This document shows positions 2,790-40,400 of a DNA stretch of 43,445 nt, piece by piece. The notes below the pieces were generated by a model. It did no database searches. It was given only the letters and a program-made list of their open reading frames with translations, and was not told the DNA's origin. Positions within the stretch are counted from its first letter, which is position 1. Every line of letters begins with the position of its first letter. Made by a program: the position numbers and the translations under genes. The stretch covers positions 554,169-597,613 of the forward strand of contig NZ_LMHM01000018.1 in the NCBI RefSeq assembly GCF_001427785.1, written 5' to 3'. The stretch comes from Lysobacter sp. Root690 (GTDB taxonomy: Bacteria; Pseudomonadota; Gammaproteobacteria; Xanthomonadales; Xanthomonadaceae).

Positions 2790-2807
2790 GCTCGGTCGCG
2801 AATCGGA

Positions 2808-2828
2808 CGGGGCGATGTTCGCCCCGTT
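2808..2828 (+). terminator. Hairpin terminator after wrbA
   Basis: Perfect 8-bp stem CGGGGCGA / TCGCCCCG with a TGT loop, 18 nt after the wrbA stop. Only two T residues follow, so it may be a weak intrinsic terminator or an mRNA 3' stabiliser. Confidence 0.5.
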
Positions 2829-2945
2829 CCTCGCTCAACAGGCTCGCTAAACAGACTCGATCAGCTGGATTGCGTCGACTGACTCGCTTCAACCGAGTCG
2901 GTTCGACTCAATCGATTCAATCCCGCTTGGCTAAAATCAATCCAC

Positions 2946-5084
2946 TCAAGCCGGTTCGACCGCATCGCGATACACGCCATCGAGCGCCAGCACCAGCAGC
3001 GCCATCCGCTCGGGCAAACGCGCCGGATCGACCGCGCCCGCCGCATCGACGGCATCGCCGAGCAGGCCGGCGATGCGGCGCAGGCCGGCGTGTTCCAGAC
3101 CGGTCGCTAATGCGCGCATGCGTTCGCGCGCGGCTGCGTTCTGATGACGCAGTCCCTGCCGCAGCCACGCCGCCAATTGCTGACGGGTCTGCTCGACCTG
3201 ATGCGCGAGCGCACTGCCGGTGTCATCGAGCACCTGCATCGGCAAGGCTTGCGCCGGCGCCGATTCGGCCTGCAGCACCAGCGCGCGTTGCTCGGTGATC
3301 AGCGCCAGCGGCAGCAATTGCAGATGCCCGGCCTGCAGGCGCGCGAGGCCGGCGACCGCGCGCGGCGCGCCCCATTCGCCGCTCAAGACGCGCGCCAGCA
3401 CATCGACCGCGCCGACCGCGGCGGCCGAATGCGGCAAGGCCAATCGCAGGCAATCGGCCGGATCGATTTCGCTCGCGCCCTCTTCGCCGCCGCTGCGCAG
3501 ATGCGCGCGAAAGGTCTGATCGGCCGCGTCCCAGCCCCAATCGAACACCGCGTCGACCGGCAGCACGTGCAGGTGTTCGATCGCCTGCGGCGGACGTACA
3601 AAATCCGGCAAGGCGCGGCGCAGATGCGCGCTCAAGGCGCGCGCGCCGGGTTGGCGCAACGGCGCGCGCAGTTGCTCCCAGGACTGCGGCGCGAGCGGCA
3701 GCACATTGGTCTGGCGCGCGCCGGCGGCGATATCGATCACGCCGTTGGCGCGGCGTTTCGCCCCGCGCGTGACCACCTGTCCGCTGGCGAACTGACGCAA
3801 CGTCTGCCCGGCGATGCGCCGCGCCATCAGCGCGGTCGGCGCCGCGGCCGCACTCGCGTCGGCGCGCGGCCACTGCCGTTCCAGCACGGTCACGCTCTGG
3901 GTATCGGGATCGGCGAACAACACCCGCACGCCTTCCGCCTCCTGGTCTTGCCAGCATTGCGCACCCAGCGACACCAGGCGCAGATGATCCAGCGCGACTT
4001 CGCCCTTGACCCCGATCCCGAAAATCTGGCTCGCCGGCAGCGGCGCGATGCCGCCGTCGGCGCGCGCGCGTCCAGCCTGACGCGCGGCGTCGACGCGCGC
4101 GGTGCATTCGGCGACCGCGTCGAGCAATTGCAAGGGATCGAAGCGGGTCGAACGCGCGTGCTGCGCGATCAGCAGATCCTGTAGGCGCTGCAGCGACGCC
4201 AGCACCCAGCTCCAGCCCAGTTGCGCGCAGCGCTGGCGCAGGCTTTCGAACGGCGCCTCCAGCAGCAGCGGCGATTGGCTCGATCCGTCCATCCACAGGC
4301 GCAGGCACAGTCTGCCGAGTTCGTCGCGCAGCGCTTGCGCCTGCGCGTCGAAGCCGACGATGTCGCCGCGTTCGCCGTGCTGACGCGGTTGCAGTTCGAT
4401 GGTCGCCTCGGCGCCCTCGTCCTGGCTCGTCTGCCATTGCCGGAACGCCCACACCGCCAGCACCACGTGTTCGCAACCGCTGCCCTGGCGGCAATCGCAA
4501 CGCGCATGCAGCAGACTGCTGCGCGAAAAGAACCGCACCGAGCACATCGGCAGGCGCGCGTTCGGCGCGTCGTCGCCGAGCCCGGCCTGCAACGCGATCA
4601 CCGGCCGCGCGGCGGCGAGGCGCGTGGCGATGTCCACGGTCGCGGCGGGGAAAGCGGCGGCGATGGCGGCATCGTCGAAGTCGGCCGGGGTCCAACGCTG
4701 CGGCGTCGCGGCGGCAGCGGGCGCGCTATCGCCCTGCGGATCGCCAACCGCATCGTTCGCGTCGGACACCGGCGCATCGGCCGCATCCGTACTCACCGCA
4801 TCGCGCACCCAACGCTGATAAGCCAACACCAGCGTCACTCGATGCCGGCACAGTCCGCTGGCCGGACAACTGCACACCGCCTCGCGCAAGGACCGGCCCG
4901 CCGCCAAAGTCGCGTGCTGGCCATCGTCGTAATGCGCGCGCACCGCGCCGTCGTCGAGTTCCTCGACCCGCGGCATCCGGCCCTCGTCGAGTTCCTTCAA
5001 TGCGCGCTTGACGAAACCGGCGTTGGCCAGCGCGATCAGCGCATCGGTGGACAGTTCGAGCAGATCCGGACGACGCGGGCTCAT
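2946..5084 (-). CDS. yehQ: SWIM zinc-finger protein, YehQ-like
   Basis: Last gene of the five-gene MoxR/VWA operon; 712 aa. Two CxCxnCxH SWIM-type zinc motifs are visible: C71, C73, C79, H81 (CSCPASGLCRH) and C196, C198, C204, H206 (CDCRQGSGCEH). SWIM domains generally mediate DNA or protein binding. A low-complexity Asp/Ala linker (about 96-130) lies between them, and the C-terminal 450 residues are an unnamed Ala/Arg/Leu-rich region. The ATG at 5084 overlaps the yehP stop by 4 bp (ATGA), which fixes the start and implies translational coupling. The same frame stays open upstream to 6170, but there it runs inside yehP. Function is unknown; by context it is a subunit or substrate adaptor of the MoxR-VWA complex. 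Confidence 0.85.
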   Translation of the reverse strand: MSPRRPDLLELSTDALIALANAGFVKRALKELDEGRMPRVEELDDGAVRAHYDDGQHATLAAGRSLREAVCSCPASGLCRHRVTLVLAYQRWVRDAVSTDAADAPVSDANDAVGDPQGDSAPAAAATPQRWTPADFDDAAIAAAFPAATVDIATRLAAARPVIALQAGLGDDAPNARLPMCSVRFFSRSSLLHARCDCRQGSGCEHVVLAVWAFRQWQTSQDEGAEATIELQPRQHGERGDIVGFDAQAQALRDELGRLCLRLWMDGSSQSPLLLEAPFESLRQRCAQLGWSWVLASLQRLQDLLIAQHARSTRFDPLQLLDAVAECTARVDAARQAGRARADGGIAPLPASQIFGIGVKGEVALDHLRLVSLGAQCWQDQEAEGVRVLFADPDTQSVTVLERQWPRADASAAAAPTALMARRIAGQTLRQFASGQVVTRGAKRRANGVIDIAAGARQTNVLPLAPQSWEQLRAPLRQPGARALSAHLRRALPDFVRPPQAIEHLHVLPVDAVFDWGWDAADQTFRAHLRSGGEEGASEIDPADCLRLALPHSAAAVGAVDVLARVLSGEWGAPRAVAGLARLQAGHLQLLPLALITEQRALVLQAESAPAQALPMQVLDDTGSALAHQVEQTRQQLAAWLRQGLRHQNAAARERMRALATGLEHAGLRRIAGLLGDAVDAAGAVDPARLPERMALLVLALDGVYRDAVEPA

Positions 5085-6202
5085 GCGCGCACCTTCTCGG
5101 CCAGCCACGCCGCCAGTTCGCCCGGCGTCATCGCGCCGACATGCGCGCCGGCGGCCACCAGGCGCGCGGCCATATCGCGATCGAACGCGGGCCGCGCCTG
5201 CGGATCGAGCGCGGCCAGGCCGAGCACCTTGACTCCGGATTCGACCAGCGCCTTGACCCGCCGCACCAGTTCGTACTTGCTGCCGCCTTCGAAGAAATCG
5301 CTGACGAGCACCACGATGGAGCGCGCCGGATTGGAAATCCGCGACTGCGCATACGCCACCGCCTTGGCGATATCGGTGCCGCCGCCGAGCTGCACCTTCA
5401 TCAGCAGCTCGACCGGATCGGCCACGTCCGCGGTCAGATCGACCACGGCGGTGTCGAACGCGACCAAGCGCGTGCTCATGCCCGGCAGATTCCACAAACA
5501 GGCGGCCATCACCGCCGAATGAATCACCGAATCGACCATCGAACCGCTCTGGTCGATCAGCAGCACGATCTCCCAGCGTTCGCTGTGGCGACGACTGCGG
5601 CTGACGAACGCCGGTTTGTCCAGGAACAGGCGGCGGCGTTGCGGATCCCAGCGATGCAGGTTCTCGCGCACGGTGCGGCGGAAATCGAAATTGCGCGCGA
5701 TCCGCTGCGAAGAGCGGCGACGGCGATCGCGGGTGCCGGAAAACGATTGCCGCACCTGGGTCTGCAGTTTCTCCATGATCCGCCGCACCACTTCGGCGAC
5801 CAGCTTGCGCGCCGCCGCCAACACCTGCGGATTCATCAGATGCTTGGTGTGCAGGACCGCGCGCAGCAGCGATTCGGACGGTTCGATGCGTTCGAGCACA
5901 TCCAGGCTGGTGACGATTTCGTCGATGCCGTAGCGCTCTACCGCGTCGCGCTCGAGGCGTTCGATCACCTCCTGCGGAAACAGCGAATGCACGGTGTTGA
6001 TCCAGTCCGGCACGCTCAGCGCCGACGGCCCCAGCCCGCCGCGCTCGCCGCGTTCGCTGCGTTCGGGATCGCGGCCGTACAGCCATTCCAATGCGGCGTC
6101 GGCGGCGGCGAGTTCGCCTTGCGGCGCGCCCAGGCTCGGATCGGCGGCTTCGCCGAGCAGCAGGCGCCAACGTTGCAGCGGATCGGGCAAGTCCAGGCTC
6201 AT
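5081..6202 (-). CDS. yehP: VWA domain protein with intact MIDAS, YehP-like
   Basis: 373 aa, with a C-terminal von Willebrand factor A domain from about residue 210. The metal-ion-dependent adhesion site is complete: D217-x-S219-x-S221 (DQSGS), T276 in GGGTD, and D302 in VSDFFEG. The N-terminal 200 residues are helical and end in a very basic stretch (RDRRRRSSQRIARNF). In MoxR-VWA pairs the VWA protein is usually the adaptor that presents a client to the AAA+ ring; that role is inferred here. The start at 6202 overlaps the yehM stop by 4 bp, and the stop overlaps the yehQ start by 4 bp, so stoichiometric coupled expression is likely. Similar in length to E. coli YehP. Confidence 0.92.
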   Translation of the reverse strand: MSLDLPDPLQRWRLLLGEAADPSLGAPQGELAAADAALEWLYGRDPERSERGERGGLGPSALSVPDWINTVHSLFPQEVIERLERDAVERYGIDEIVTSLDVLERIEPSESLLRAVLHTKHLMNPQVLAAARKLVAEVVRRIMEKLQTQVRQSFSGTRDRRRRSSQRIARNFDFRRTVRENLHRWDPQRRRLFLDKPAFVSRSRRHSERWEIVLLIDQSGSMVDSVIHSAVMAACLWNLPGMSTRLVAFDTAVVDLTADVADPVELLMKVQLGGGTDIAKAVAYAQSRISNPARSIVVLVSDFFEGGSKYELVRRVKALVESGVKVLGLAALDPQARPAFDRDMAARLVAAGAHVGAMTPGELAAWLAEKVRA

Positions 6203-8694
6203 TGCGCGGCCTCCTCGTCGGCGATCGCGTCCAGGCCCCACTCGCGCAGACGTTGCAGCACCTGCGCTTCGATCCGCGCGGCCGCGGCGACCTGGGCCGG
6301 ATCGGCGGCGAGCGTGGCGGTCAGCGCGCGCTGCGACAGGTGATCGGCGCCATGCAGGCGCAGCACGCTGTGCGCCAGTTCGCCGCGTTCGCGCGGCGGC
6401 AGCCAGGCGAATGCGCCGCGCATCGCCGGCAGCGCCAAAACGAAGTCGGCGTCGTCGAGCGCACCGATCAGGCGGTCGAGCCCGCTGACGAATTCGCGCT
6501 CCTGGGTCAGCCGTTCGCGCGCCAGCGACACCAGCCCGGTCAACGCATCGCCGAGCCGTGCTGGCGCGAGCGCGCCGAGCAGATGCAGCGCCTGCGCGAT
6601 ATCGTCGGGTTCCTGCCCGCCGCGGCCGGCATGCAGATCGAACAAGGCGCCCAGCGCGGCGCCGCGTCCGAGCGGATCGGCCTGCGGGTCCAGCGCCTTG
6701 CGCCGCAGCACCGCCAGCGCGCGCGCCGGTTCGATCTGCAGCCGCGGTCCGCGCCGCGGCGTATCGGTATCAGTGTCGTTGTCGACATCGGCATCGGCCA
6801 GCGCGTCGCGCACGATGTCGCGCAGCACGGCGATGGTGCGCAGGTGCGGGCCGGCGTCGGCCGCGACGATGCTCGCGGCCGGTTCCAGCAACCACAACGC
6901 GCGATCGAAGCCGGCTTCGATCGTCGCCGCCAATACCGGCGCGCCGCTGATATCGAGCAGGTCGCCATGCCGCCACAGCGCATGGATCAACTCCAGGGCC
7001 GCGCCGATCGCCTCCAGCCGCGGCTCGGCGCCGATCGCCGCGCGCAGATCGCGCAGCAAGCCGTCGCTGACCTCGGCCAAGCCGGCGAATGCGGCCGCAT
7101 CCAGTGCCTGCGCCAGCGGTTCGACCCGGCCCTGCGCCGCGCGCAGCCGTTCTTCCAGGCGCGCGCGCGCCGCATCGAGCAAGGTCGCGCCGTACGCGCC
7201 GGCTTCGATCAAGGCCGCCTGCTGCTCCAACGGCGCGCGCAACTGCCACAGCTCGCGGCGTTCGCCCGACATTGACAGCCGCGGGCCCTGGCGACGCTCG
7301 ATTCCCGGAATCTGCAACAGCAAAAGACGGTGCAGCACCCGACTGCGCGCCCGATCGGCGCTGTCGAGCAGATCCAACCGACGTTCGCCGTCGAACGTCA
7401 GACCGTGCGCGGTCAGTTCAGCCTGCACCGAAGCCAGCAACGGCGGCTGCGGCGTGCCGGGCGCGAGCAAGCCGACCGCGTCGCCGGCGATCACGTCCAT
7501 GACCTGCATCAGCACCGGATCGGTGCCGGCACGGATCGGCCCGCGATAACTCCACGGCAAGGGCGCGTCGAGCGCGTCCTTGACCAGCGCGCCGGCGATC
7601 GCGTCGAGCCAGTCCGAACGCAGCGGATCGGCATGCCCGCGCAGACGCGCCAGCGCCTGCGCGTGGGTATGCACGGCGACGAAATCCGCGGTCGAGGCCG
7701 GCAGGTGCTTGCCGCGCAAGCGCGCCAATACGCGTTGCAGCATGCGCAGGCCGGCCTGGGCCATGCCCGATTCCCACACCCATTGATAGAACGCCGGCGA
7801 CGACATGCCCGACGCATATCCGGTGAACGCATCCAGGCGCTTGAAACCGTAGGGCACCAGGAACGAGCCGTAGCGCAACGGCGGCGCCTGCGCGGACGCG
7901 GATTGATCCTGCGCATCGTCAGCGAGATCGAGTTCGGGCACCGGCGTGGCCGGGCAACGCAACCCATCATCGTCGCGACCGAACGTTTCGACGTCGACCT
8001 CGCGCCACATCCGCGCCAGGGCCGGCGCGTGATAGCCGCCGCACACCACCAGCACCGGCCCGTCCTCGCGCGCCATCGCCCAGGCGATCCAGCGCGCCAT
8101 CATCTCTTCGCGCGCGGCGTTGCCGGGCGAACCCGGATCGTCGTGGCGCAGATGTTCGAAGTACGTGTGCAGCCGCTGCGCCAAGGCTTCGTCGGGACCG
8201 TCGAGATCGTGCGGCGCATCCTCGAACAGGTGGTCCCACAACGCGTCGCGGCCGTCGATCGACAGCCGTCGCGACAGTTCGTCCTCATACGCCTCGGCGC
8301 GATCGTGCGCCTGCGCATCGGCTTCGTCGGCGTAGCGGTTGGGCAGCTCAGCGAAGGCCTCGTGCCAGGCCGGCAGATCAATGAAACGCGCCTGCGCGCC
8401 GACTTCGCGGGCGACGCTGAGCGCCTGCCATTCGGGCGAATGCTCGGCGAACGGCGACCACGAGCCGCGATGCAGCGGGCCATGCGACAGATAGCTGTAA
8501 ATCGCCAGCGGCAGACGATGCGGCAGATGCAGTTCGTCGATGCGCGGGTTGAAGTCGGCCGGGCCTTCGATCAGCACATGACGCGGACGCAAGGCGCGGA
8601 TGCACGCGGCCACCAGCCGGGCGCAGGCCGGGCTGTGGTGACGCACGCCGATCACCACCGGCGCGCGCGCGGTCGCCATCGCCGACGCGCTCAC
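6199..8694 (-). CDS. yehM: DUF5682 family protein, YehM-like
   Basis: Large cytoplasmic protein of unknown function, 831 aa with the chosen start. The N-terminus (VVIGVRHHSPACARL, RHHSP at 18-22) followed by VLIEGPADFNP (about 40-50) and later VLVVCGGYHAPAL looks like an alpha/beta domain with conserved His and Glu. It could be an enzyme of the TraB/erythromycin-esterase-like kind, which is speculation. The rest is long, helical and Leu/Ala/Arg-rich. The GTG at 8694 is preferred because it overlaps the yehL stop by 4 bp (GTGA), as at the next two junctions; an ATG at 8679 (5 codons later) is the alternative. A short Asp-Thr run (DNDTDTDTP) interrupts the C-terminal half. Confidence 0.85.
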   Translation of the reverse strand: MSASAMATARAPVVIGVRHHSPACARLVAACIRALRPRHVLIEGPADFNPRIDELHLPHRLPLAIYSYLSHGPLHRGSWSPFAEHSPEWQALSVAREVGAQARFIDLPAWHEAFAELPNRYADEADAQAHDRAEAYEDELSRRLSIDGRDALWDHLFEDAPHDLDGPDEALAQRLHTYFEHLRHDDPGSPGNAAREEMMARWIAWAMAREDGPVLVVCGGYHAPALARMWREVDVETFGRDDDGLRCPATPVPELDLADDAQDQSASAQAPPLRYGSFLVPYGFKRLDAFTGYASGMSSPAFYQWVWESGMAQAGLRMLQRVLARLRGKHLPASTADFVAVHTHAQALARLRGHADPLRSDWLDAIAGALVKDALDAPLPWSYRGPIRAGTDPVLMQVMDVIAGDAVGLLAPGTPQPPLLASVQAELTAHGLTFDGERRLDLLDSADRARSRVLHRLLLLQIPGIERRQGPRLSMSGERRELWQLRAPLEQQAALIEAGAYGATLLDAARARLEERLRAAQGRVEPLAQALDAAAFAGLAEVSDGLLRDLRAAIGAEPRLEAIGAALELIHALWRHGDLLDISGAPVLAATIEAGFDRALWLLEPAASIVAADAGPHLRTIAVLRDIVRDALADADVDNDTDTDTPRRGPRLQIEPARALAVLRRKALDPQADPLGRGAALGALFDLHAGRGGQEPDDIAQALHLLGALAPARLGDALTGLVSLARERLTQEREFVSGLDRLIGALDDADFVLALPAMRGAFAWLPPRERGELAHSVLRLHGADHLSQRALTATLAADPAQVAAAARIEAQVLQRLREWGLDAIADEEAAQ

Positions 8695-9815
8695 GGCAGG
8701 CGGTGCCGCGCCTCGTAATAGGCGCGCCAATGGCTGCCGCCTTTCTTGGCCACTTTCTGTTCGAAATAACGGCGCAGCTTGGCGCGATCGTCGGCATCGT
8801 CCTTGACCACGGTGCCGGCAATGCAGTCGACCAGATCGGCCGGCGAGCCTTCGCGCTGTTCCAGGAACCACGCGCGCACGCCGACTGCGTGGGCGACGTT
8901 GACCGCCTCGGCGGTGGACATCACCGCGTTGAGCCGGTCCATCGCGCCGTCGCTGCGGGCCGCGCCGCTGTCCTTGCCGCGCAGGTCGCGGAAGGTTTCC
9001 ACCAGCAGTTCCAGCACCTGGGTCGGCACCGATTTCGGAATGCCGCTGCGCGCGAGCAACCGCGCCGAGGCCTGTTCGACCAGGGCGAGCTCGCGTTCGA
9101 AATCGAGGATCGGAAACACCGTCTCGAAATCGAAACGGCGCTTGAGCGCGGCGCTCATTTCGTTGACGCCGCGGTCGCGGGTGTTGGCGGTGGCGATGAT
9201 GTTGAAGCCGTCGCGCGCGTACAGCATGCCGTCCTCGCCGGACAGTTCCGGCACCGCCATGACCCGGTCCGACAGCATGCCCAGCAGGCAGTCCTGCACT
9301 TCCTGCGGCGCGCGGGTGATTTCCTCGAAACGCACGATGCGGCCCTCGCGCATGCCCTGGTACAACGGCGCCGGCACCAGCGCGCGCGGGCTGGGGCCTT
9401 CGTTGATCAGCAAGGCGTAGTTCCACGAGTACTTGATCTGATCCTCGGTGATCGAGGCGCCGCCCTGGATGGTCAGGGTGGACACGCCGCTGATCGCGGT
9501 CGCCAGCAGTTCCGACAGCAGCGATTTCGCCGTGCCCGGCTCGCCGACCAGCATCAGCCCGCGGCCGGTGGCGAGCGTCACCAGCATGCGTTCGATCGAC
9601 GCGACCGGCGCGACGATCTTGCGCTCGATACTCAGGCCGTCGTCGCCGAGCACGAACGCGCGCGCGGCTTTCAGGCTTAGCGCCCAGCCGGGCGGACGCG
9701 GGTCGCGGTCGCTCGCGGCCAAGCGCGCGAGTTCGTCGGCGTGCAGCAGTTCGGCCGGCGGGCGTTGCAGATGCGACGGCGTGGATGCGGGAGTAACGGT
9801 CGGAGTCTTGGCCAT
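8691..9815 (-). CDS. yehL: MoxR-family AAA+ ATPase, YehL-like
   Basis: 374-aa AAA+ ATPase of the MoxR group, which acts as a hexameric chaperone or remodelling motor together with a VWA partner. Walker A is GEPGTAKS at residues 91-98, Walker B is IVRFEE at about 160-165, sensor 1 is the Asn of ATANTRD near 211, and the arginine-finger region is ALKRRFDF at 223-230. The N-terminal 70 residues form an extension before the ATPase core. The ATG at 9815 begins MAKTPTVTP. A 63-bp gap separates it from yehI upstream, and its stop overlaps the yehM start. ATP hydrolysis should be intact since all key residues are present. Confidence 0.94.
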   Translation of the reverse strand: MAKTPTVTPASTPSHLQRPPAELLHADELARLAASDRDPRPPGWALSLKAARAFVLGDDGLSIERKIVAPVASIERMLVTLATGRGLMLVGEPGTAKSLLSELLATAISGVSTLTIQGGASITEDQIKYSWNYALLINEGPSPRALVPAPLYQGMREGRIVRFEEITRAPQEVQDCLLGMLSDRVMAVPELSGEDGMLYARDGFNIIATANTRDRGVNEMSAALKRRFDFETVFPILDFERELALVEQASARLLARSGIPKSVPTQVLELLVETFRDLRGKDSGAARSDGAMDRLNAVMSTAEAVNVAHAVGVRAWFLEQREGSPADLVDCIAGTVVKDDADDRAKLRRYFEQKVAKKGGSHWRAYYEARHRLP

Positions 9816-9878
9816 GTGGGCTAGTCGTGTTCCATGAAAGCGGCGAGGTCGATCAGCGCTGACGGGTTAGTTGAAAGC

Positions 9879-12800
9879 TCAGGCGCGCAGCGCTTCGAGG
9901 TCGCGGATCAACTCGCTGGCCGAGATAGGATCGAGCCCGGACAAGCGCTCGGCGGTCTGCATGTTGCCCCAGCTCGACGGTTTGCCGATCTGCACTTCCT
10001 GCAGGGTCTGCTCTGGGTACTCGTCGACCAGGCCGACGATGATGCCCGGGTCGAGGGTCAGCTCGATCACCCAGTCGCGGCCGAGCGGCTTGCTGAAGTA
10101 CCAGATGCCGCCGCCGTCCTGCGCGGTGCCGCGGCGCCAGCCCTTGTTGACCAGGCCGAGCACGCGCCCGGTCGGCACCACCACGCCCTTCCAGCGCAGC
10201 AGCTTGTCCTGCTCGCGTTCGGCCGGATCCAGCGCATGCACGTCGCGGCCCATCTGCGCGAACGGCTGCAGCAGTTCGTAATCGGCGAACAGCTGGCCGA
10301 ACGCTGCCGCGTCGGCGGCCGGCAATTCCAGCGCGTGCGGCAGGCCGATGCGCACGCTGTCGCCGCACGGCAACTCAAAGCCATCATCGCCGGCGGTGGT
10401 GTAACTGGCATCTTCGGCGACGCGGAAACAGGCCTGCAGTCGGCCGCCGTAACCGGCGTCGTCGGCATCGGCCTCGTACACGCCCCAGACCAGGCGCTGG
10501 ACCAGATGGCGCAGCAACGGATGGCCGGCGAGAAATTGCTCGAACACCTCCACCGTCCAGCGGCGCCGGCTGCACATCGCCACTTCCAGCCGCAGCACCT
10601 GCTGGCTGGCGATGGTGCGCACGTCCTTCTTGAGCAGCTTGAAGCGCTCGGTGGCCTGTTTCGACAACTCCGCGTCGTCACTCTTCTTCGGCTTGGGCAG
10701 ATCGGCCAGGCGCGCGCCGTCGCTGTCGCGCACGTACGGCTTGAGCGCCTCGTCGAAACCGACCCGGAACTGACGCGCGCCGAAATCCAGCAGCATCGTG
10801 CCGTGTTCGTCCAGGCCCAGGTCGGGCGCCAGCCGGTCCTCCAGTTCTTCCGCGCTCAGGCCGCGCGCCTGCGCGATCTCTTCGATCTTCTCGCGCGCCT
10901 TGTCCTGCAGGCCCTTGAACTTGACCTTCTGGGCGATGCCGTTGAGCAACATCAAGGCCACGTCGCTGCCGATCCCGGCGAGCACGTCGAGGCCGGCGAC
11001 CGCGCGCGCATGCGCGGCCTCGCCGGGCCAGGCGCGGATATACGGCGTGAGCCGGCGCGCGGTGTCGTCGTTGCCGATCAGCGCCAGCACGTTCATCGCC
11101 CAGCTGTCCTTGGACGGCGCGCCGGCATAGAGCCAGGCACCGAACGCGTCCCAGCCGAAATCGGCCAGCGATTGGGCGATGCAGGCTTCGCGCAATTGCT
11201 CGATCCCCGGATACACGCCTTCGTTGCTCGGAAACGCGAACATCGTGCCGACGTGATCCAGCGCCTGATCCGGCAACGCCTTACCGTTGCGCAGCAGCGG
11301 CCGGCGCCAACCGCGCGGCTGCCAGAACGCCGGCAGCGGCGCGCGTTTGCTCGGATAACGGTCGAGCGGATTCTCGATCAGCATCGCCTCCAGCGCCGCG
11401 CTTACGTCTTCGCGCTGATAGCGCGCGGCGACCTCGCGCAGCAGCGCGCCGTGGCCTTGCTCGTCGAGCAGGCGCAAGCCGGCGGCGGCGCAATCGCGTG
11501 CTTCGCCGGCCTTGCCGATCGCCGGCGCGATCAGGCCGCATGCCGCGTATTCGGGATTGGCCAGCAGCCAACGACGGCCGATATCGCGCACGCTCTTGAG
11601 CTTGGCGAACGCGCGCGCCATCAGCGGCGCGAACTCGACCGTGCCCACGTGCAGCGCCACCTGCAGATGCTCGCTCGGGCGCCGCCGCACCGCCGCGCTC
11701 ACGCCGGGCAATGCCGACAGGCCGAAGCGCGCGAGCATGTACTCCACGCCGTAGTCGCTGTCGCCTTCGCCAGCCAGCGCATTCCACACCGGCACCGCCA
11801 GTTCCTCGGGCAGTTGCCCCACTTCGGTGCCGTCGATCGGCATCCAGCTCCAGCCCGTGGTCTTGCGCACGGCCTTGTAGCGCTGCCACGCATCGACCAG
11901 GGTCTGACTGTCGCGCGCGCGGATCGCCTTCGCGGCGTCCTCGAGGATCGACTTGTCCTTGACGTCGCGACCGTTCAAACCGAGCAGCGCGGCCATCGCC
12001 AATGCGTCGTTGCCGAGCTTGCCGAAACGCTCGCGCTTCCACTGCCCCACATCCTGCGCGGCCTCGCGTTCGGCCGGCGTCCAATGTTCGACCGCGGTCA
12101 GCGGCAGCGGCTCCAGACCGGCCACCGTCAACACCTTCGGCCGCGTGCCGAGCCATGGCGGCGCCGCCAGCACCGGGGGCAATTCGCCGGGTTCGGCGGT
12201 TTCGGCCGGGCCGCTGAGTTGGGCCAGCAGTTTGTCGATGGTCTGCGCCGCGGCCGGACTCAGCCACGGCCGCAACGCCGGCACCTGATCGGCGCGCGCG
12301 CGCAGCAGCGCGGTCAGGCTCGGGCCGAGCAGCACCGCGTCCTTGCCGCCGTTGGCGATGACCCGCGCCAGCCCGACCATCGCCGCGCTCGGCCAACGAT
12401 TCACCGCGCGGGTCAGACGCGCCAGCGTGTTCTTGCTCAGACTGGCCGCGGCCGCCAGCGCTTCGATCGCGTCGGGCGTGCCGATCGCGACCAGCGCCTC
12501 GCCGGCGGCATCGTAGCCGGCACCTGGGGCGAGCCGGTCCAGCGCCTCCACCCCGTGCTCGATCAGCACCGTGGCGATCATGTCCGTGTGGCCGAAGAAC
12601 GGCGTATAGCCGTCGGCCTTGACCTTGCGCGCGATCGCGATCGCGGCCGGATCGGTCGCGCTGAGCTGCAGCCAATGCAACTGCGCCGGCGCGTTGGCGC
12701 CGCCGTAGCGATGGGCCAGCTCGTTGGACAGTTCCGGCCGGTCGGGCAACAGCAGCGCCATGCTGATCTGGCGCGAGGGATGCAATTGCGGCAGCACTTC

Positions 12801-13796
12801 GACGATCCGCTGCACGCACTCGTCGTACAGCGCCAGAGGCGCGGCGGCCAGATGCTCGCGGAACGCGAGTTCGCCTTCACTGAGCGGGCCGCGCCAGCTC
12901 TCGCCGATCGGTCGCTCGGGATCGGCGGTGAGGAAACGTTGATGCGTCTGCGTCGCGCGGTCCCAATCGGTGCCGACGACCAGCGAGCGCTGCACCTCCA
13001 ACAAATGTTCAACCGCCTTGAGCAAGCCATGACGCGCGACGAGGAAACCCACGAACGGCACGCCGGCGTCGTGATCGCCGTAGTACATGGCCAGCGCGAG
13101 CAACGCGGCGGTGGACGCGTCCGAGCCGTCGGGCCGGCGCGATTGCAGGCGTTCGCCGGCCTCGGCCAACGCCGCCTGCCAGGCCGGATCGGTCTTGCTC
13201 AGTTCGATCCGGTTGCCGTTGAGCAGGATCTCGCGCGCGGCCAGCCACAGCTTGAGCGGATCGGTGTCGGCGATCGGCTTGGGATGACGCCGGGTGGGCA
13301 GGGCCAGTTTGATCAGGTCCGGGCCGATGTCGAGCGGTACGCCATCGTTGAGCCACGGCGGTGTGTCGGATGCGGCGGCGACGGGCGCGGTGGTCGCTTC
13401 GGCAACGAGGTTCGTTGCGATGGCGTTCGGCGCGGCGACAGGTGCGGGCTCGGGTGCTGCGACTTGCGCGGCTGCGTTCGTCGATTCGGGCGATGGCGCG
13501 GATGTCGCGACCGTCTCGGCCGCCGGTTCGGGCTTAGGTTTATCGGGCTTGGGTTTTTCGGCGGTCTTGCCGATGCTCGCGCCCGCGGCGGCGACGGACT
13601 CCACATACCCCTTGCCGGTCTTCTCGTCGATCAACTTGATCAGCGCCGCGGCGGCCTTGTTCGCATCGGCGAAGGCCTTGGTCTGGCTCTGTCCGGCGGT
13701 GCCGATGCGGCCCCAGCGGATATTGAGATCGCTACCGTCCTGCTCGGCTTCCCAAAACTTGCTCGAACTGCCTTCCACATACTCGAAACGACGCAT
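9879..13796 (-). CDS. yehI: WGR and DUF4132 domain giant protein, YehI/MolR-like
   Basis: First gene of the operon, 1305 aa. Residues 1-70 are a WGR domain (MRRFEYVEGSSSKFWE, then IRWGRIGTAGQ with WGR at 28-30). WGR domains occur in PARP proteins and in bacterial proteins thought to contact nucleic acid. A Pro/Ala/Lys-rich linker of about 110 residues follows, then a long helical-repeat-like body, and the C-terminal part matches the DUF4132 region of E. coli YehI/MolR. E. coli molR was once linked to molybdate regulation, but the mechanism is unknown. The ATG at 13796 is chosen since AAGGAG lies 5 nt upstream; a GTG two codons earlier (13802) overlaps that ribosome binding site. Confidence 0.9.
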   Translation of the reverse strand: MRRFEYVEGSSSKFWEAEQDGSDLNIRWGRIGTAGQSQTKAFADANKAAAALIKLIDEKTGKGYVESVAAAGASIGKTAEKPKPDKPKPEPAAETVATSAPSPESTNAAAQVAAPEPAPVAAPNAIATNLVAEATTAPVAAASDTPPWLNDGVPLDIGPDLIKLALPTRRHPKPIADTDPLKLWLAAREILLNGNRIELSKTDPAWQAALAEAGERLQSRRPDGSDASTAALLALAMYYGDHDAGVPFVGFLVARHGLLKAVEHLLEVQRSLVVGTDWDRATQTHQRFLTADPERPIGESWRGPLSEGELAFREHLAAAPLALYDECVQRIVEVLPQLHPSRQISMALLLPDRPELSNELAHRYGGANAPAQLHWLQLSATDPAAIAIARKVKADGYTPFFGHTDMIATVLIEHGVEALDRLAPGAGYDAAGEALVAIGTPDAIEALAAAASLSKNTLARLTRAVNRWPSAAMVGLARVIANGGKDAVLLGPSLTALLRARADQVPALRPWLSPAAAQTIDKLLAQLSGPAETAEPGELPPVLAAPPWLGTRPKVLTVAGLEPLPLTAVEHWTPAEREAAQDVGQWKRERFGKLGNDALAMAALLGLNGRDVKDKSILEDAAKAIRARDSQTLVDAWQRYKAVRKTTGWSWMPIDGTEVGQLPEELAVPVWNALAGEGDSDYGVEYMLARFGLSALPGVSAAVRRRPSEHLQVALHVGTVEFAPLMARAFAKLKSVRDIGRRWLLANPEYAACGLIAPAIGKAGEARDCAAAGLRLLDEQGHGALLREVAARYQREDVSAALEAMLIENPLDRYPSKRAPLPAFWQPRGWRRPLLRNGKALPDQALDHVGTMFAFPSNEGVYPGIEQLREACIAQSLADFGWDAFGAWLYAGAPSKDSWAMNVLALIGNDDTARRLTPYIRAWPGEAAHARAVAGLDVLAGIGSDVALMLLNGIAQKVKFKGLQDKAREKIEEIAQARGLSAEELEDRLAPDLGLDEHGTMLLDFGARQFRVGFDEALKPYVRDSDGARLADLPKPKKSDDAELSKQATERFKLLKKDVRTIASQQVLRLEVAMCSRRRWTVEVFEQFLAGHPLLRHLVQRLVWGVYEADADDAGYGGRLQACFRVAEDASYTTAGDDGFELPCGDSVRIGLPHALELPAADAAAFGQLFADYELLQPFAQMGRDVHALDPAEREQDKLLRWKGVVVPTGRVLGLVNKGWRRGTAQDGGGIWYFSKPLGRDWVIELTLDPGIIVGLVDEYPEQTLQEVQIGKPSSWGNMQTAERLSGLDPISASELIRDLEALRA

Positions 13797-13965
13797 CTCC
13801 ACTCCTTGTCGGCCACGCCCTTGGCGCCGATCGCCCGCGTGGATCGGACCAGTTTAGCCGTTGCGCATGTCGTTTCGTGACGCTGTACGCGAAACAAGAT
13901 CGAGTGGCGGGATCCGAACAAGAGGATCGGGCGACGGCATCAGCGGTATCTATCGGCGCCGCGGA

Positions 13966-14316
13966 TCACAGCCACCACAACGCCGCAAGCGCGGCCAACG
14001 CCGGAACCGCCTGCACATAGAAAATCCGGCGGCTGACCGTGGCCGCGCCGTATGCGCCGGCGACCACCACGCAGGCCAGGAAGAAGGTCGCCACATCGAT
14101 TCGCGCGCAGACCAAACCCCACACCAGGCCGGCGACCAGGAAGCCGTTGTACAGGCCTTGGTTGGCCGCGAGCACGCGGGTGATTTCGGCTTTTTCCGGC
14201 GTGTTGCGGAACACCTTCATGCCCAGCGGCTTGGTCCACAGGAACATTTCCAGGACCAGGAAGTACAGGTGCAGCAACGCGACCAGTGCGATCAGGACAA
14301 TGGTGAGCCAATGCAT
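13966..14316 (-). CDS. DUF1304 family membrane protein
   Basis: A 116-aa integral membrane protein with four hydrophobic segments. The N-terminal IALVALLHLYFLVLEMFLW, the basic loop with KVFRNTPEKA, and the second segment NQGLYNGFLVAGLVWGL are the recognisable DUF1304 pattern. Function is unknown; family members are small inner-membrane proteins. The ATG at 14316 has AAGGA 9 nt upstream. It is monocistronic, 169 bp from the yehI start and 204 bp downstream of the epimerase-like gene. Confidence 0.88.
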   Translation of the reverse strand: MHWLTIVLIALVALLHLYFLVLEMFLWTKPLGMKVFRNTPEKAEITRVLAANQGLYNGFLVAGLVWGLVCARIDVATFFLACVVVAGAYGAATVSRRIFYVQAVPALAALAALWWL

Positions 14317-14476
14317 CGGTCGGGTTCCTTGCGCGGGTGGATTCGCGCAAGCATACGGCTTTGTATGGCGGTGGTGGCGTGGGGTTTTGGGGTGCTGCCG
14401 GGCGATGTGTGAGGTGAGGCCGATATCGGAGCGATGTCGGCCTCTTGGTGGTGGCGCCGGGTTGTGCGGTGGCGTC

Positions 14477-14500
14477 GTCGCGGCTCATGCCGCTCCTACA
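14477..14500. repeat. SMAG/REP-like half palindrome
   Basis: A 24-bp GTCGCGGC...GCCGCTCCTACA unit. The same unit recurs at 36146-36172 (with an inverted partner) and at 43257-43280. On the other strand it begins TGTAGGAGCGGC, which resembles the GTAG-headed REP elements known from Stenotrophomonas and relatives. It lies 20 bp downstream of the minus-strand epimerase-like gene. Confidence 0.6.
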
Positions 14501-14520
14501 GTGGGATACGCGGCTTTCGA

Positions 14521-15648
14521 TCAGGTTTTGGCTTTCAAACTTTCGTGCCACGCCTTCAAGACTTCGGCTTCGCGCGTTGCGGCGATGCCGGCCTTCGGCT
14601 TGGCGCGACGTTCTTCGGGCAGGCCGCGCCACCAGTCCAGGGTGGCGCTCACGGTCTCGCGCAACGGACGTTGTTGCAGGCCCGCGGCGCGCGCCTTGGC
14701 CACCGAGGTGCGGCCGAATCCGGCGTATTCGCCGCGCGCGGGAATCCACGCCGGCATGTCCTGCCACGCCGATACTTTCTGCGCTTCGAGGAAATCCGCC
14801 GGCACCCAGGTCACGCTCGACTTGGCCTTGGCGGCGCGCTGGCATTCGCTCAACAGCGCGCCCAAGGTCAGCGAACCGGGCGCGCCGTCGGCGTTGTAGA
14901 TGCCGTAGCGGCCGCCCTCGATCGTCGCCAGCAGGAACGCGGCCAGATCGCGCACGTCGATGAACTGGGTCGGGTCGGCGGCGCTGCCGGGGGCGAGGAT
15001 CTCGCCGCCGCGATCGGCGCGCGCGGGCCAATAAGTGAAACGATCGCTGTTGTCACCGGGGCCGACAATCAGGCCGGGGCGCACCACGGTCGTACGCCCC
15101 GGCAATTCGCGTTCGGCCGCCTGTTCGCACAGCGCCTTGAGGCCACCGTAGGTTTCGCCGGTCACTTCGGTGACGTTCGGATCGGCGAGCACCGCCAGCG
15201 GCGAGGTCTCATCGTTCGGCGCATCGTTCTTGGCGTAGACCGAGATCGTCGACACGATCAGATACTGCTTGACCCGCGAGGCCAGCAGCTTGGCCGAACG
15301 GGTCACGTCCGCGGGCAGGTACGCCGAGGTGTCCAGCACCGCATCCCACTGTCGATCGCCTTCCAGCGCCTTCATGTCGCTCTTGCGATCGCCATGCAGT
15401 TGCTCGATGTCGTTGAACTGCTCGCCGGAGAACTTGTCCGGATTGGTCTTGCCGCGATTGAACAAGGTCAGCGTGTGGCCGTGCTTGCGCGCGATCTCGA
15501 CGAAGTGCGGGCCGAGAAAACCGGTGCCGCCGAGCACCAGCAGCTTGCGCGGCTTGGGTTGCAGGATCGTGCGCGCGGACGACGGCAGCGCGAGCAGGCC
15601 CGCGCCGGCGGCGCCGGCGGCGAGGAAGTCGCGGCGACTGATGCTCAT
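14521..15648 (-). CDS. Tat-exported NAD-dependent epimerase/dehydratase-like protein
   Basis: 375-aa extended short-chain dehydrogenase/reductase fold. The N-terminus is a twin-arginine signal (SISRRDFLAAGAAGAGLLALP), so the folded protein, with its nucleotide, should be exported to the periplasm. The Rossmann loop follows at about residues 36-45 (LLVLGGTGFLGPH). The classical catalytic Y-x-x-x-K appears as YGGLK near 168-172, preceded by Ser in STISVY. The C-terminus has the ISOFLAVONE-reductase/epimerase-like RDLAAFLLATIEGGRYGIYNA. The ATG at 15648 has GAGGTG about 5 nt upstream and overlaps the stop of the upstream nucleotide-transporter-like gene by 3 bp. Substrate is unknown; a Tat-exported member is itself unusual for this fold. 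Confidence 0.87.
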   Translation of the reverse strand: MSISRRDFLAAGAAGAGLLALPSSARTILQPKPRKLLVLGGTGFLGPHFVEIARKHGHTLTLFNRGKTNPDKFSGEQFNDIEQLHGDRKSDMKALEGDRQWDAVLDTSAYLPADVTRSAKLLASRVKQYLIVSTISVYAKNDAPNDETSPLAVLADPNVTEVTGETYGGLKALCEQAAERELPGRTTVVRPGLIVGPGDNSDRFTYWPARADRGGEILAPGSAADPTQFIDVRDLAAFLLATIEGGRYGIYNADGAPGSLTLGALLSECQRAAKAKSSVTWVPADFLEAQKVSAWQDMPAWIPARGEYAGFGRTSVAKARAAGLQQRPLRETVSATLDWWRGLPEERRAKPKAGIAATREAEVLKAWHESLKAKT

Positions 15649-38099: not shown

Positions 38100-40400
38100 T
38101 TACCAGCTCACCGACACGCTGGCGCCGACATTGCGGCCCGGCGCGCTGTAGCGGTCGATCACCGTGCTGGTCGCGGCGATGCCCGGCAGGTCGCCGGCGT
38201 CCCAATAGGTCTTGTCCCCGAGATTGAATACGCCGACGTTGACCTTGGCACCCGGCGCGAAATTCCAGTGCGCGAGCAGATCGAGCACGCCGTAACCCGG
38301 CGCGGCGAAGCGGTTCGGCGCCGGCAGATCGTCCTTGCGCTTGGCGAAGCGGCCGGCCAGTTCCACGCCCCACACGTCGCGGTCGTAGGCCAGGCCCAGG
38401 GTCGCGGTCAACGGCGCGATCGATTCCAGCGGACGATCGGCGGCCTTGTCCTCACCCTTGCTGTACGCCGCCGCGCCGCGCAGCGACCAACCGGCCCAGG
38501 CCGGCGAGAACTCGCCGAAGTCGACACCGCCGCGCAGTTCCACGCCGCGGATGCGCGCCTTGGCCACGTTCTGCGACTGGAACACGATCAACGGCGTCCG
38601 CGGCGGCGCGCTGACCTGACGGTTGGATTCGATGAAGTCCTTATAGTCGTTGTAGTACGCCGACAGCTGCGCATACACGGCCTTGCCGCTGAAGCGCAGG
38701 CCCAGTTCGTAGCCGTCGCTGGTCTCGGGCTTAAGGTTCGGGTTCGGAATCGCGGTGTAGCCGAACTGCAGATTGGTGAAGCCCAGATTGACGTCGCTGT
38801 AGGGCGGCGCGCGGAAACCGCGCTGGTAGCCGCCGTACACCGACCAGTCCTGCGAGAAGTGCCAGACCGCGCCGAGCTTGGGCGACACGCTGGTCTTGCT
38901 CAGGTCGCTGACGACCACGCCGGGATTGTCGGCGGTGAAGATCGCATCGCGTTGCGGACGCAGTTCGTAACGATCCACGCGCACCGCCGGCACCAGCCGG
39001 AACGCGCCGTCGGCGAACTGGATTTCGTCCTGCACGAACACGCCGGCGCTCTGGGTCTTGCTGACCGGGAAATCGCGCACCGGGAAGGTATCGGGCGAGA
39101 TCACGTTGGTGCTCACGCCGGTGGTCAGATTGATCCCGCGGCCGTCGCGCTTCTGGCGGAACTCGGTGTTTTCGTATTCGAAGCCGTAGGTCAGGGTGTG
39201 CTCGACCGAACCGGTGGCGAAGCCCTTGTGCGCGGTGGCTTCGGCGCCGTACACGCGCTGGTCGAAGTTGAATTCGCGCAGGCGCAGGGTCGGGCTGATC
39301 TCGCGGCCGCCGACCACGCTCACTCGCTGCTCGCGGGTGCGTTGGGTGGTCTCGCTGTCCTGGCGGTAGATCTGCCAGCGCAGCGAATCGGCGAAGGCGC
39401 TATCGAGCGAATCGATTTCGTGGGCGAACGCGACCCGCGCGCGGGTCTGGTGATCGTTGCCGGTCTGCGACAACACCCGCACCGCCGGCGCGCCCGGCGC
39501 CGACAGCGCAGTGCCGCGCGCAGTGAACACCTCGGTGTCGGTCTGGTCTTCGCTGCCTTCCAAGGTCAGGCGGAAACGCTGGTTGTCGCTGGGCGCGTAC
39601 ACCAGCTTGGTCAGCAGGCTGCGGCCGTCGTTGTCCTGCGGGTTGGGCGTGGTGCGGCTGGCGTCGAGGGTGTTGCGCTTGCCTTGGTTCTCGGTTTCCT
39701 GGCCCTGATGGTGATTGACCACGACCAAGCCCGACCAGCGCTCGCCGCCGAACGCCGCGGTGGCGCCGCCGTACAGGCCGTCGTTCTGGCTTTCGACGCC
39801 TAGCTTGAGGCCGAAGTACGCGTTGGCGCCGTCCTTGAGGTAGTCCTCCGGGTCCTTGGTCACGAACGAAACCACGCCGCCGAGCGCATCGGAGCCGTGC
39901 AGCGCGCTGCTGGGGCCGCGCACGATCTCGACTTCCTTGACCGTGTCCAGATCGACGAAATTGCGTCCGGCGTTGGAGAAGCTGCCGATACTGAAGCTGT
40001 CGGAGACCGAGATGCCGTCGACCAGCACGCGCACGCGATTGCCGCCGAGGCCGCGGATGCGGATGTCGCCCAGGCCGAAGCGTTCGCGATTGGAACCCAC
40101 GACGATGCCGGGTTCGTAGCGGAACAGGTCCTTGATGTTGCGGGTGAGTTCGTTGTCCATGCGCTCGCGGTCGATGGCGCTGACCGTGGCCGGCACGTCC
40201 TGCACCGCGCGCTCGGTGCGGGTGGCGCTGACCACCACGCGCTGGAGTTCGTTGACGTCGGCGCCGTCGGGCGCGGGCGCATCGGCGGCGAGCGCGGCGG
40301 CCGGCAGCGCGAGCAACAACGCCAGGGCCAGCGCGGAACGCGCGGGGACGACAACGGGGAAAACGCGCGGACGCGCGGCAACACTAAGGACGCGGGACAT
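38100..40400 (-). CDS. TonB-dependent hemoglobin/transferrin/lactoferrin-family receptor
   Basis: 766-aa outer-membrane receptor that should import heme or iron with energy from TonB. A signal peptide (about 1-39, ending in AAALAAD), a TonB-box-like LQRVVVSATR (52-61), a plug domain (IKDLFRYEPGIVVG ... RIRGLGGNRVRVLVDG ... VEIVRGPSSALHGSDALGG) and a 22-strand barrel ending in Trp (SVSVSW) are visible. The heme-receptor landmarks FRAP (529-532) and NPNL (553-556) are present, but the histidine that lies between them in HemR-like receptors is absent, and no plug His in the usual place is seen. Cotranscribed with the two genes downstream. The ATG at 40400 gives the signal peptide. Confidence 0.93.
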   Translation of the reverse strand: MSRVLSVAARPRVFPVVVPARSALALALLLALPAAALAADAPAPDGADVNELQRVVVSATRTERAVQDVPATVSAIDRERMDNELTRNIKDLFRYEPGIVVGSNRERFGLGDIRIRGLGGNRVRVLVDGISVSDSFSIGSFSNAGRNFVDLDTVKEVEIVRGPSSALHGSDALGGVVSFVTKDPEDYLKDGANAYFGLKLGVESQNDGLYGGATAAFGGERWSGLVVVNHHQGQETENQGKRNTLDASRTTPNPQDNDGRSLLTKLVYAPSDNQRFRLTLEGSEDQTDTEVFTARGTALSAPGAPAVRVLSQTGNDHQTRARVAFAHEIDSLDSAFADSLRWQIYRQDSETTQRTREQRVSVVGGREISPTLRLREFNFDQRVYGAEATAHKGFATGSVEHTLTYGFEYENTEFRQKRDGRGINLTTGVSTNVISPDTFPVRDFPVSKTQSAGVFVQDEIQFADGAFRLVPAVRVDRYELRPQRDAIFTADNPGVVVSDLSKTSVSPKLGAVWHFSQDWSVYGGYQRGFRAPPYSDVNLGFTNLQFGYTAIPNPNLKPETSDGYELGLRFSGKAVYAQLSAYYNDYKDFIESNRQVSAPPRTPLIVFQSQNVAKARIRGVELRGGVDFGEFSPAWAGWSLRGAAAYSKGEDKAADRPLESIAPLTATLGLAYDRDVWGVELAGRFAKRKDDLPAPNRFAAPGYGVLDLLAHWNFAPGAKVNVGVFNLGDKTYWDAGDLPGIAATSTVIDRYSAPGRNVGASVSVSW

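Follow-up and report, generated by a model that had tools for sequence, protein, structure and literature searches.

A five-gene operon on the minus strand of the Lysobacter sp. Root690 genome (positions 2946-13796 of a 43,445-nucleotide stretch of contig NZ_LMHM01000018.1, here called the window) is, to judge from its protein sequences, both a MoxR-VWA system and a TIKI-superfamily system. It encodes a WGR/DUF4132 protein, a MoxR ATPase, a DUF5682 protein, a VWA protein and a SWIM zinc-finger protein. The main new result is the link between DUF5682 and a superfamily of hydrolases, by which this protein, left without a role in the original prediction made from the letters of the window, becomes the likely enzyme of the system. 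Membership of its N-terminus in the TraB/TIKI/ChaN hydrolase superfamily is considered highly probable, and the retention of catalysis is predicted with good confidence.

The DUF5682 protein (YehM-type, positions 6199..8694, minus strand; Pfam DUF5682, 1.8e-100) consists of a TraB/TIKI/ChaN-like domain within approximately residues 1-300, numbered from the ATG form, followed by a mainly helical C-terminal part. It was chosen as bait for a search of genome contigs because it is specific, and this search yielded at least 560 relatives, the best 80 of which were taken as loci. An alignment of 75 rows (77 good rows minus L017, L030 and L074, plus the window) has revealed that R13, H14, H15, P17, E38, P40, S81, P82, E83, D101, R190, E191, M194, G214 and H217, among others, are invariant. 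H14, E38, R190 and H217 were aligned onto the H, E, R and H of TraB, in the superfamily order GxxH, E, R, GxxH, and these four residues are unchanged also in four loci without the full operon. The Pfam DUF5682 model gave 12 sub-cut-off matches elsewhere in the relatives, covering roughly positions 126-234 of the profile; all four of those inspected were TraB-like proteins, one of which, scanned with Pfam, matched TraB_PrgY_gumN (1.2e-28) and DUF5682 (9e-05). The first 250 residues of DUF5682 alone matched PF04187 (Pfam: Tiki superfamily, ChaN) at E 0.0074, below the curated cut-off.

Comparisons carried out with hhalign gave 86% (E 5e-6, for a single comparison) for DUF5682 against six TraB-like rows and 69% against 22 ChaN rows, with a yardstick of 74% for TraB against ChaN, both of them superfamily members. 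In the controls, reversed profiles reached at most 1.4% and DUF5682 against MoxR or VWA at most 0.4%. The whole-protein model (predicted local distance difference test score, pLDDT, 89.8) has an alpha/beta N-terminus with the remainder mostly helical, and a search of a viral structure library placed a TraB family protein first, as a weak match (prob 1.00, E 0.009, template modelling score 0.44 by target length). The likeness to the TraB/TIKI/ChaN/EreA superfamily lies in H, E, R and H in order together with profile and weak fold similarity, whereas the C-terminal helical part, the tie to an AAA+ motor and the lack of E in the first motif distinguish the window's protein. PDB sequence searches with DUF5682 found nothing credible, the best E being 0.16 for the protein alone and 0.016 for the 75-row profile, whose match was an ATP synthase b subunit aligned to the helical part. 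No paper naming DUF5682 or DUF5691, a second family described below, was found in the literature searched.

The MoxR AAA+ ATPase (YehL-type, 374 amino acids, positions 8691..9815, minus strand; Pfam AAA_5, 1.2e-34) is complete, and the CoxE-type VWA protein (YehP-type, 373 amino acids, positions 5081..6202, minus strand; Pfam VWA_CoxE, 1.5e-63) carries a metal ion-dependent adhesion site (MIDAS), both as originally proposed. Residues G91, P93-K97, E164, E165, N211, R226 and R227 of MoxR were invariant in 36 aligned sequences; they presumably correspond to Walker A, Walker B, sensor 1 and the arginine finger, motifs that by this alignment are intact. YehL is taken here as a subfamily name among MoxR ATPases. 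The MIDAS pattern DxSxS...T...D was found in VWA, with D217, S219, S221, T251, T276 and D302 invariant in 34 sequences. These alignments used 35 of 71 rows for MoxR and 33 of 72 for VWA, with 32 of 39 for SWIM and 33 of 44 for DUF4132, the window being added to each. PDB profile searches returned midasin as the best match of MoxR and nothing at 0.01 for VWA. A YehL-type MoxR without DUF5682 was also observed at L165:8741-9928, where it adjoins a frame with type II/IV secretion ATPase and methyltransferase domains. An intact MoxR AAA+ protein and a CoxE-type VWA protein with MIDAS in one operon are shared with NorQ-NorD, CoxD-CoxE and RavA-ViaA, from which the present system differs in its constant partners, namely TIKI-like, SWIM and helical-repeat proteins. 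MoxR rings act via VWA partners, and in NorQD a finger of the VWA domain enters the pore of the ring and the linker is remodelled (PMC13036017).

The coordinates, strand, order and Pfam matches of the five genes agree with the original prediction. The remaining two are the gene for the WGR-HEAT-DUF4132 protein (YehI-type, 1305 amino acids, positions 9879..13796, minus strand; Pfam WGR 7.9e-17 and DUF4132 5.5e-48), separated from the MoxR gene by a 63-bp spacer (9816..9878, minus strand), and the gene for a long SWIM zinc-finger protein (YehQ-type, 712 amino acids, positions 2946..5084, minus strand; Pfam SWIM 8e-06). No NCBIfam model was over its cut-off in the five proteins. Three junctions had been described as overlapping by exactly 4 bp. 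The VWA/SWIM and DUF5682/VWA junctions are indeed plain 4-bp overlaps (ATGA each), and the MoxR/DUF5682 junction is one (GTGA) only if DUF5682 starts at the GTG at 8694 (831 amino acids), while the ATG at 8679 (826 amino acids, 6199-8679) leaves an 11-bp gap. Conservation in related strains, the lack of which was to count against the prediction, was found in the two genus relatives compared (L110 and L111), which keep all three overlaps and a similar spacer. Among scorable junctions, the window included, a 4-bp start was available in 13 of 69 for MoxR/DUF5682, 39 of 67 for DUF5682/VWA and 27 of 41 for VWA/SWIM, and because of these counts the packing is described as tight in general, the exact 4 bp not being general.

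The titles of the 80 loci include Proteobacteria, Bacteroidota, Actinobacteria, Planctomycetes, a cyanobacterium, Lachnospiraceae and others. Gene maps drawn with iterated profiles for the five proteins revealed a constant part, made up of MoxR, DUF5682, VWA and SWIM, and a fifth slot occupied by DUF4132 (type I, as in the window) or by DUF5691 (type II). Type I follows the order DUF4132-MoxR-DUF5682-VWA-SWIM, which at some loci is rotated or has DUF4132 at another place in the locus (on the opposite strand in L023 and L047), and type II the order short SWIM-DUF5691-MoxR-DUF5682-VWA. Flanks of 5.5 kb or more on either side were available for 67 loci, 63 of which have MoxR, VWA and SWIM with an occupied fifth slot. 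These 67 comprise 38 of type I, 23 of type II, two with both DUF4132 and DUF5691 and four in which at least three parts are missing; all 80 loci divide into 40 complete type I, 24 complete type II, two with both, four exceptions and ten with short flanks. The loci carrying both families (L057 and L064, Bacteroidota) possibly bridge the two types. The four exceptions (L027, L032, L034 and L035, of Planctomycete/Blastocatellia-Acidobacteria type) hold DUF5682 without most partners and with the invariant residues kept. FastTree trees of MoxR (68 rows), VWA (67) and DUF5682 (67), labelled for 66, 65 and 65 rows with the two-family loci unlabelled and L030 left out, each show a single change of type, so the core proteins do not cross between types. 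The strict co-occurrence of the five families that had been suggested as a check does not hold, a large second type having DUF5691 in place of DUF4132.

Loci picked by DUF5682 say nothing of the frequency of the other genes in its absence, a question addressed for one phylum, that of the window, by searching the same 200 genomes family by family (VWA at 1e-20, MoxR at 1e-30). DUF5682 was found in ten genomes, VWA in the same ten, MoxR in the same ten plus G138, and DUF4132 in eight, namely seven of the ten plus G007. DUF5691 was found in five genomes, four of them over the cut-off and all four among the DUF5682 genomes. At ten of the 11 DUF5682 places in the ten genomes, a fifth-slot family is nearby on the same contig; the eleventh (G167) runs across two contigs, the second of which holds DUF4132 and VWA, and G196 has one locus of each type. 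Since related genomes are not independent, no significance is claimed for the overlap beyond its completeness. This near-complete co-occurrence of the core parts bears out the view of one conserved functional unit. Closer to the window, DUF5682 matched in 24 of the 80 nearest relatives, being over the cut-off in 15, and in the genus it was over the cut-off in nine of 20 genomes, three scoring like the window and six like the other group. Of the eight besides the window, five were obtained with long flanks, L110 and L111 being of type I and L107-L109 of type II.

The remaining proteins are less uniform. The long SWIM proteins contain the first CxC..CxH motif (C71, C73, C79 and H81) in 32 of the 33 aligned and the second in 17 of the 33, so that of the double-SWIM description the first finger stands in general and the second does not. 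SWIM fingers are also able to bind protein. A PDB profile search with SWIM gave a best value of 0.33; short and long SWIM proteins, compared by hhalign (58%), are possibly related. The DUF4132 protein has HEAT-like stretches by its family profile, which in a PDB search matched mostly HEAT-repeat designs and HEAT proteins, with the WGR region matching 2ra8 at 0.02. Residues 640-1305 were modelled with pLDDT 90.5, and a PDB fold search with this model, its C-terminal alpha/beta part included, found nothing at E <= 0.001, the 50 matches listed being mostly helical repeats. WGR was present in 13 of 45 re-cut DUF4132 N-terminal pieces, five of which were not extendable, and in 11 of 34 aligned rows partly trimmed at the N-terminus; with WGR in 13 of 45, DNA binding by this domain is not system-wide. 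The proposed nucleic-acid-related target, bound through WGR and SWIM, is weakly supported because WGR is optional and SWIM fingers may bind protein. DUF5691 was recognised by Pfam in two proteins scanned (7.5e-77 and 6e-138), and SWIM and DUF5691 form one open frame in Nocardia vulneris (L080, 957 amino acids) and in L084. A distant relationship of DUF5691 to SWIM (0.1%) or to DUF4132 (6%) was not supported by hhalign, and L030 was not counted as a DUF5682-VWA fusion, the end of DUF5682 lying in another frame. Taken as a whole, the original prediction was partly supported: for the unit, the ATPase, the MIDAS and the E. coli parallel discussed below, and less so for five strictly linked families and a nucleic-acid target.

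The proposed mechanism starts from what was observed directly, that is, the gene structure, the ATPase and MIDAS motifs, the similarity of DUF5682 with its invariant catalytic-type residues, the near-obligate co-occurrence and the two congruent types. With the chances about evenly balanced, a dedicated TIKI-type hydrolase would be driven or gated by the MoxR-VWA pair acting as a remodelling machine; the single complex, the order of action, the chemistry (peptide- or ester-bond hydrolysis) and the substrate are all inferred. The operon would encode a cytoplasmic ATP-driven machine whose working end is the TraB/TIKI-superfamily hydrolase. The MoxR ring would pull or twist the VWA co-chaperone, the MIDAS site of VWA would grip DUF5682 or the helical-repeat partner, and this grip would open, activate or feed the hydrolase domain. 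Scaffolding and target choice would fall to SWIM together with the helical-repeat protein, which in type I is DUF4132, whether or not it carries WGR, and in type II is DUF5691. These two families are not clearly related (6%), and their exchange fits an adaptor role of the fifth slot. A bolder and unlikely extension is that the operon encodes an ATP-dependent machine of a new class, proteolytic or ester-cutting. Its TIKI-superfamily hydrolase would be fed or switched by a MoxR ring with a MIDAS co-chaperone, and not by a Clp/Lon/FtsH-type unfoldase; targets would be set by SWIM and by interchangeable DUF4132/DUF5691 adaptors, with DNA-damage control in some lineages. A MoxR-VWA pair coupled to a hydrolase has been described in jumbo phages (PMC7824862), where the pair is phage-borne and a metallopeptidase is fused to the vWA protein, in contrast to the separate TIKI-like protein found here.

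Several results weigh against a TIKI-type hydrolase driven by MoxR and VWA. The PDB fold search with the whole DUF5682 model gave nothing at E <= 0.001, the 50 matches listed were mostly helical-repeat proteins with no TIKI, TraB, ChaN or Ere protein among them, and the top match in the viral library was also above E 0.001. By hhalign, DUF5682 reached 2% against an 11-row TraB/PrgY/gumN set, mostly of the GumN side, a set that gave 28% against ChaN and 95% against TraB. Two His, two Glu and one Arg have been reported as required for the activity of a TIKI endopeptidase (PMC6254334). The first Glu of the TIKI GExH motif is V12 in DUF5682 and T in the TraB set (positions matched by eye), and the full TIKI set of two His and two Glu is not found in DUF5682; with V12 in this position, the superfamily likeness stands and peptidase activity is not implied. 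The four exceptional loci hold DUF5682 without MoxR, VWA or both, and the hydrolase may act alone there. In the 200 genomes, DUF4132 (G007) and MoxR (G138) each occur once without DUF5682, the G138 MoxR standing without the other six profiles in 18 kb and the G007 DUF4132 without the others in 12 kb.

Independent action of DUF5682 is the core of an alternative that is rather unlikely, in which the MoxR-VWA chaperone pair would insert a metal into DUF5682 or mature it as a client, as NorQ/NorD do for NO reductase, after which DUF5682 would work alone. MoxR-VWA pairs of known function serve metalloenzymes (PMC13036017, PMC9976466), the VWA protein is of the CoxE type, and DUF5682 is kept without MoxR or VWA at some loci. 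However, maturation leaves the constant SWIM and helical-repeat partners and the two congruent types unexplained, and the metal need of TIKI-fold enzymes varies (PMC6254334).

The closest known counterpart of the operon provides the setting for the other explanations. E. coli MG1655 has the order yehI-(yehK)-yehL-yehM-yehP-yehQ, with the same five families as stated in the original prediction, homologous proteins and a DUF5682 protein 48% identical to that of the window. It differs in yehK, placed between yehI and yehL, and in yehF and the yehH pseudogene upstream. The gene named molR1 is presumably yehF. No function of the yehI-yehQ operon was found described in the literature searched, in agreement with the earlier statement that its biochemical role is undescribed; one genome-reduction announcement names all five yeh genes, and a double deletion of molR1 and lepA slows growth (PMC4245954).

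Published regulation points to a DNA-damage module, which would act on proteins at damaged DNA that WGR and SWIM recognise as DNA or DNA-protein; this is quite unlikely. E. coli molR is counted among the LexA-regulated genes (PMC11039860, PMC3978071, PMC4576408), and the LexA-like sequence CTGGATAAAATTACAG at L002:13450-13465 ends 9 bases before yehF. Nevertheless, this site does not precede yehI-Q and is one of 14 seen in the E. coli stretch versus 9.2 expected, and no LexA-like box was found before the window's operon. In 23,112 bases upstream of scorable operons, the pattern CTGTN8ACAG gave 10 sites (ratio 1.7, p 0.09), which is no clear enrichment; the counts for three further LexA patterns were 0, 0 and 2. 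A similar LexA-like site was observed in L019 at a like distance upstream. In Deinococcus radiodurans, DRA0166 (DUF4132) and DR2173 (WGR) are DdrO targets, mitomycin C-induced and IrrE-dependent (PMC8533742). A DdrO-type palindrome with 3 mismatches (L172:4723-4739) ends 19 bases before the SWIM gene of the type II operon of Deinococcus taeanensis. It is the sole site in 19.4 kb at 3 mismatches, with 0.14 strand matches expected and 2 seen, a number reached in 5 of 200 shuffles; no comparable site was found at the operon start of L061 (Trueperaceae). The Deinococcus taeanensis operon also has an extra small gene between MoxR and DUF5682. WGR is optional. The DNA-damage link in print concerns DUF4132/WGR relatives and not the MoxR-DUF5682-VWA genes directly.

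A role in conflict or anti-phage defence, with MoxR-VWA as trigger and DUF5682 as a toxic effector held in check, is very doubtful. It is suggested by an overall likeness (motor, co-chaperone and third enzyme) to the VMAP, iSTAND, FtsH and beta-propeller ternary systems of Kaur et al. 2020 (PMC7159879), which also combine MoxR, VWA and a third constant protein. The third component here is DUF5682, and the available passages of PMC7159879 contain no TraB, TIKI, EreA, SWIM or Yeh wording. None of the five proteins has an FtsH or beta-propeller domain by Pfam, a search that did not extend to VMAP and iSTAND, and as far as could be judged the operon does not match the four systems. PADLOC gave no match at 0.001 in the five proteins. 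At 1e-10 it matched at most five of the 122 nearest flanking frames, which were chosen by a simple longest-frame rule and some of which may not be genes; in a comparison set of 65 farther frames, 34 PADLOC families were matched, each in one member, the exact number of matching frames being uncertain. The enrichment beside defence genes that had been suggested as a check was looked for, and few defence neighbours were found, although an Iodobacter plasmid copy adjoins restriction genes. The putative active site is invariant in the 75 sequences, which argues against an effector in conflict.

Mobility bears on the same question. The operon shows presence/absence in the window's genus, as a conflict system might. 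It occupies a block of approximately 2791..13967, and in the four relatives examined the flanking genes lie close together without it (0.16-1.0 kb apart versus 11.2 kb in the window); two of them, G207 and G217, have a type II locus elsewhere. This differs from the near-core position in E. coli, where yehM was found in 5284 of 5426 genomes (5166 at >=80% cover), yehI in 5283 (5177) and yehQ in 5300 (5267), counting presence by match and not frame intactness. Near-core there and patchy here, the locus was gained or lost in the window's genus. The 11-kb block was rejected as a mobile element, its end regions sharing no exact 11-mer. Only two of 5291 yehM places in E. coli are on plasmids; one E. 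coli IncF plasmid (L173) was seen to carry a chromosomal block from yehI to mlrA between IS26 copies, beside resistance genes. Matches were found in 35 of 72,556 plasmid records, some of them chromosome-sized, and in one of 50,697 phage records. The latter, an unverified faecal contig with the label Bacteriophage sp., contains MoxR-DUF5682-VWA (L174:166-4876) and is probably bacterial DNA. Viral contigs gave 11 pattern matches and no relative. By defence-family matches, neighbours and mobile spread, the operon does not look like an anti-phage island.

Regulation of molybdate utilisation, suggested by the old molR name and 1990 work as cited in later papers and by the CoxE-type VWA, whose family takes its name from CO-dehydrogenase genes, is most improbable, as no neighbour family besides DUF5691 occurs in more than 7 of the 80 loci, so that no molybdenum gene is a constant neighbour, and moeA and moeB are unchanged in Deinococcus DdrO-depletion data (PMC8533742).

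Outside the operon, positions 14440-14530 of the window are part of a dispersed short repeat, similar to repetitive extragenic palindromes, with 53 further matches in the same genome and dozens in several genus relatives. A TonB-dependent receptor is located at 38100-40400, and other frames match a flavodoxin-fold protein, an epimerase, major facilitator superfamily transporters, a GMC oxidoreductase, a beta-lactamase-fold protein and GcvT.

Matches to the genes of the operon occur in about 97% of E. coli genomes in the search, and relatives are found in many phyla, yet no function has been described for it in the literature searched. DUF5682 is the largest constant unknown of the system, and the predicted link to a hydrolase superfamily supplies a testable active site, while the split into two types separates the parts of the machine from those that are exchangeable. 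If MoxR-VWA does drive DUF5682, a MoxR system would be coupled to a dedicated cutting enzyme.

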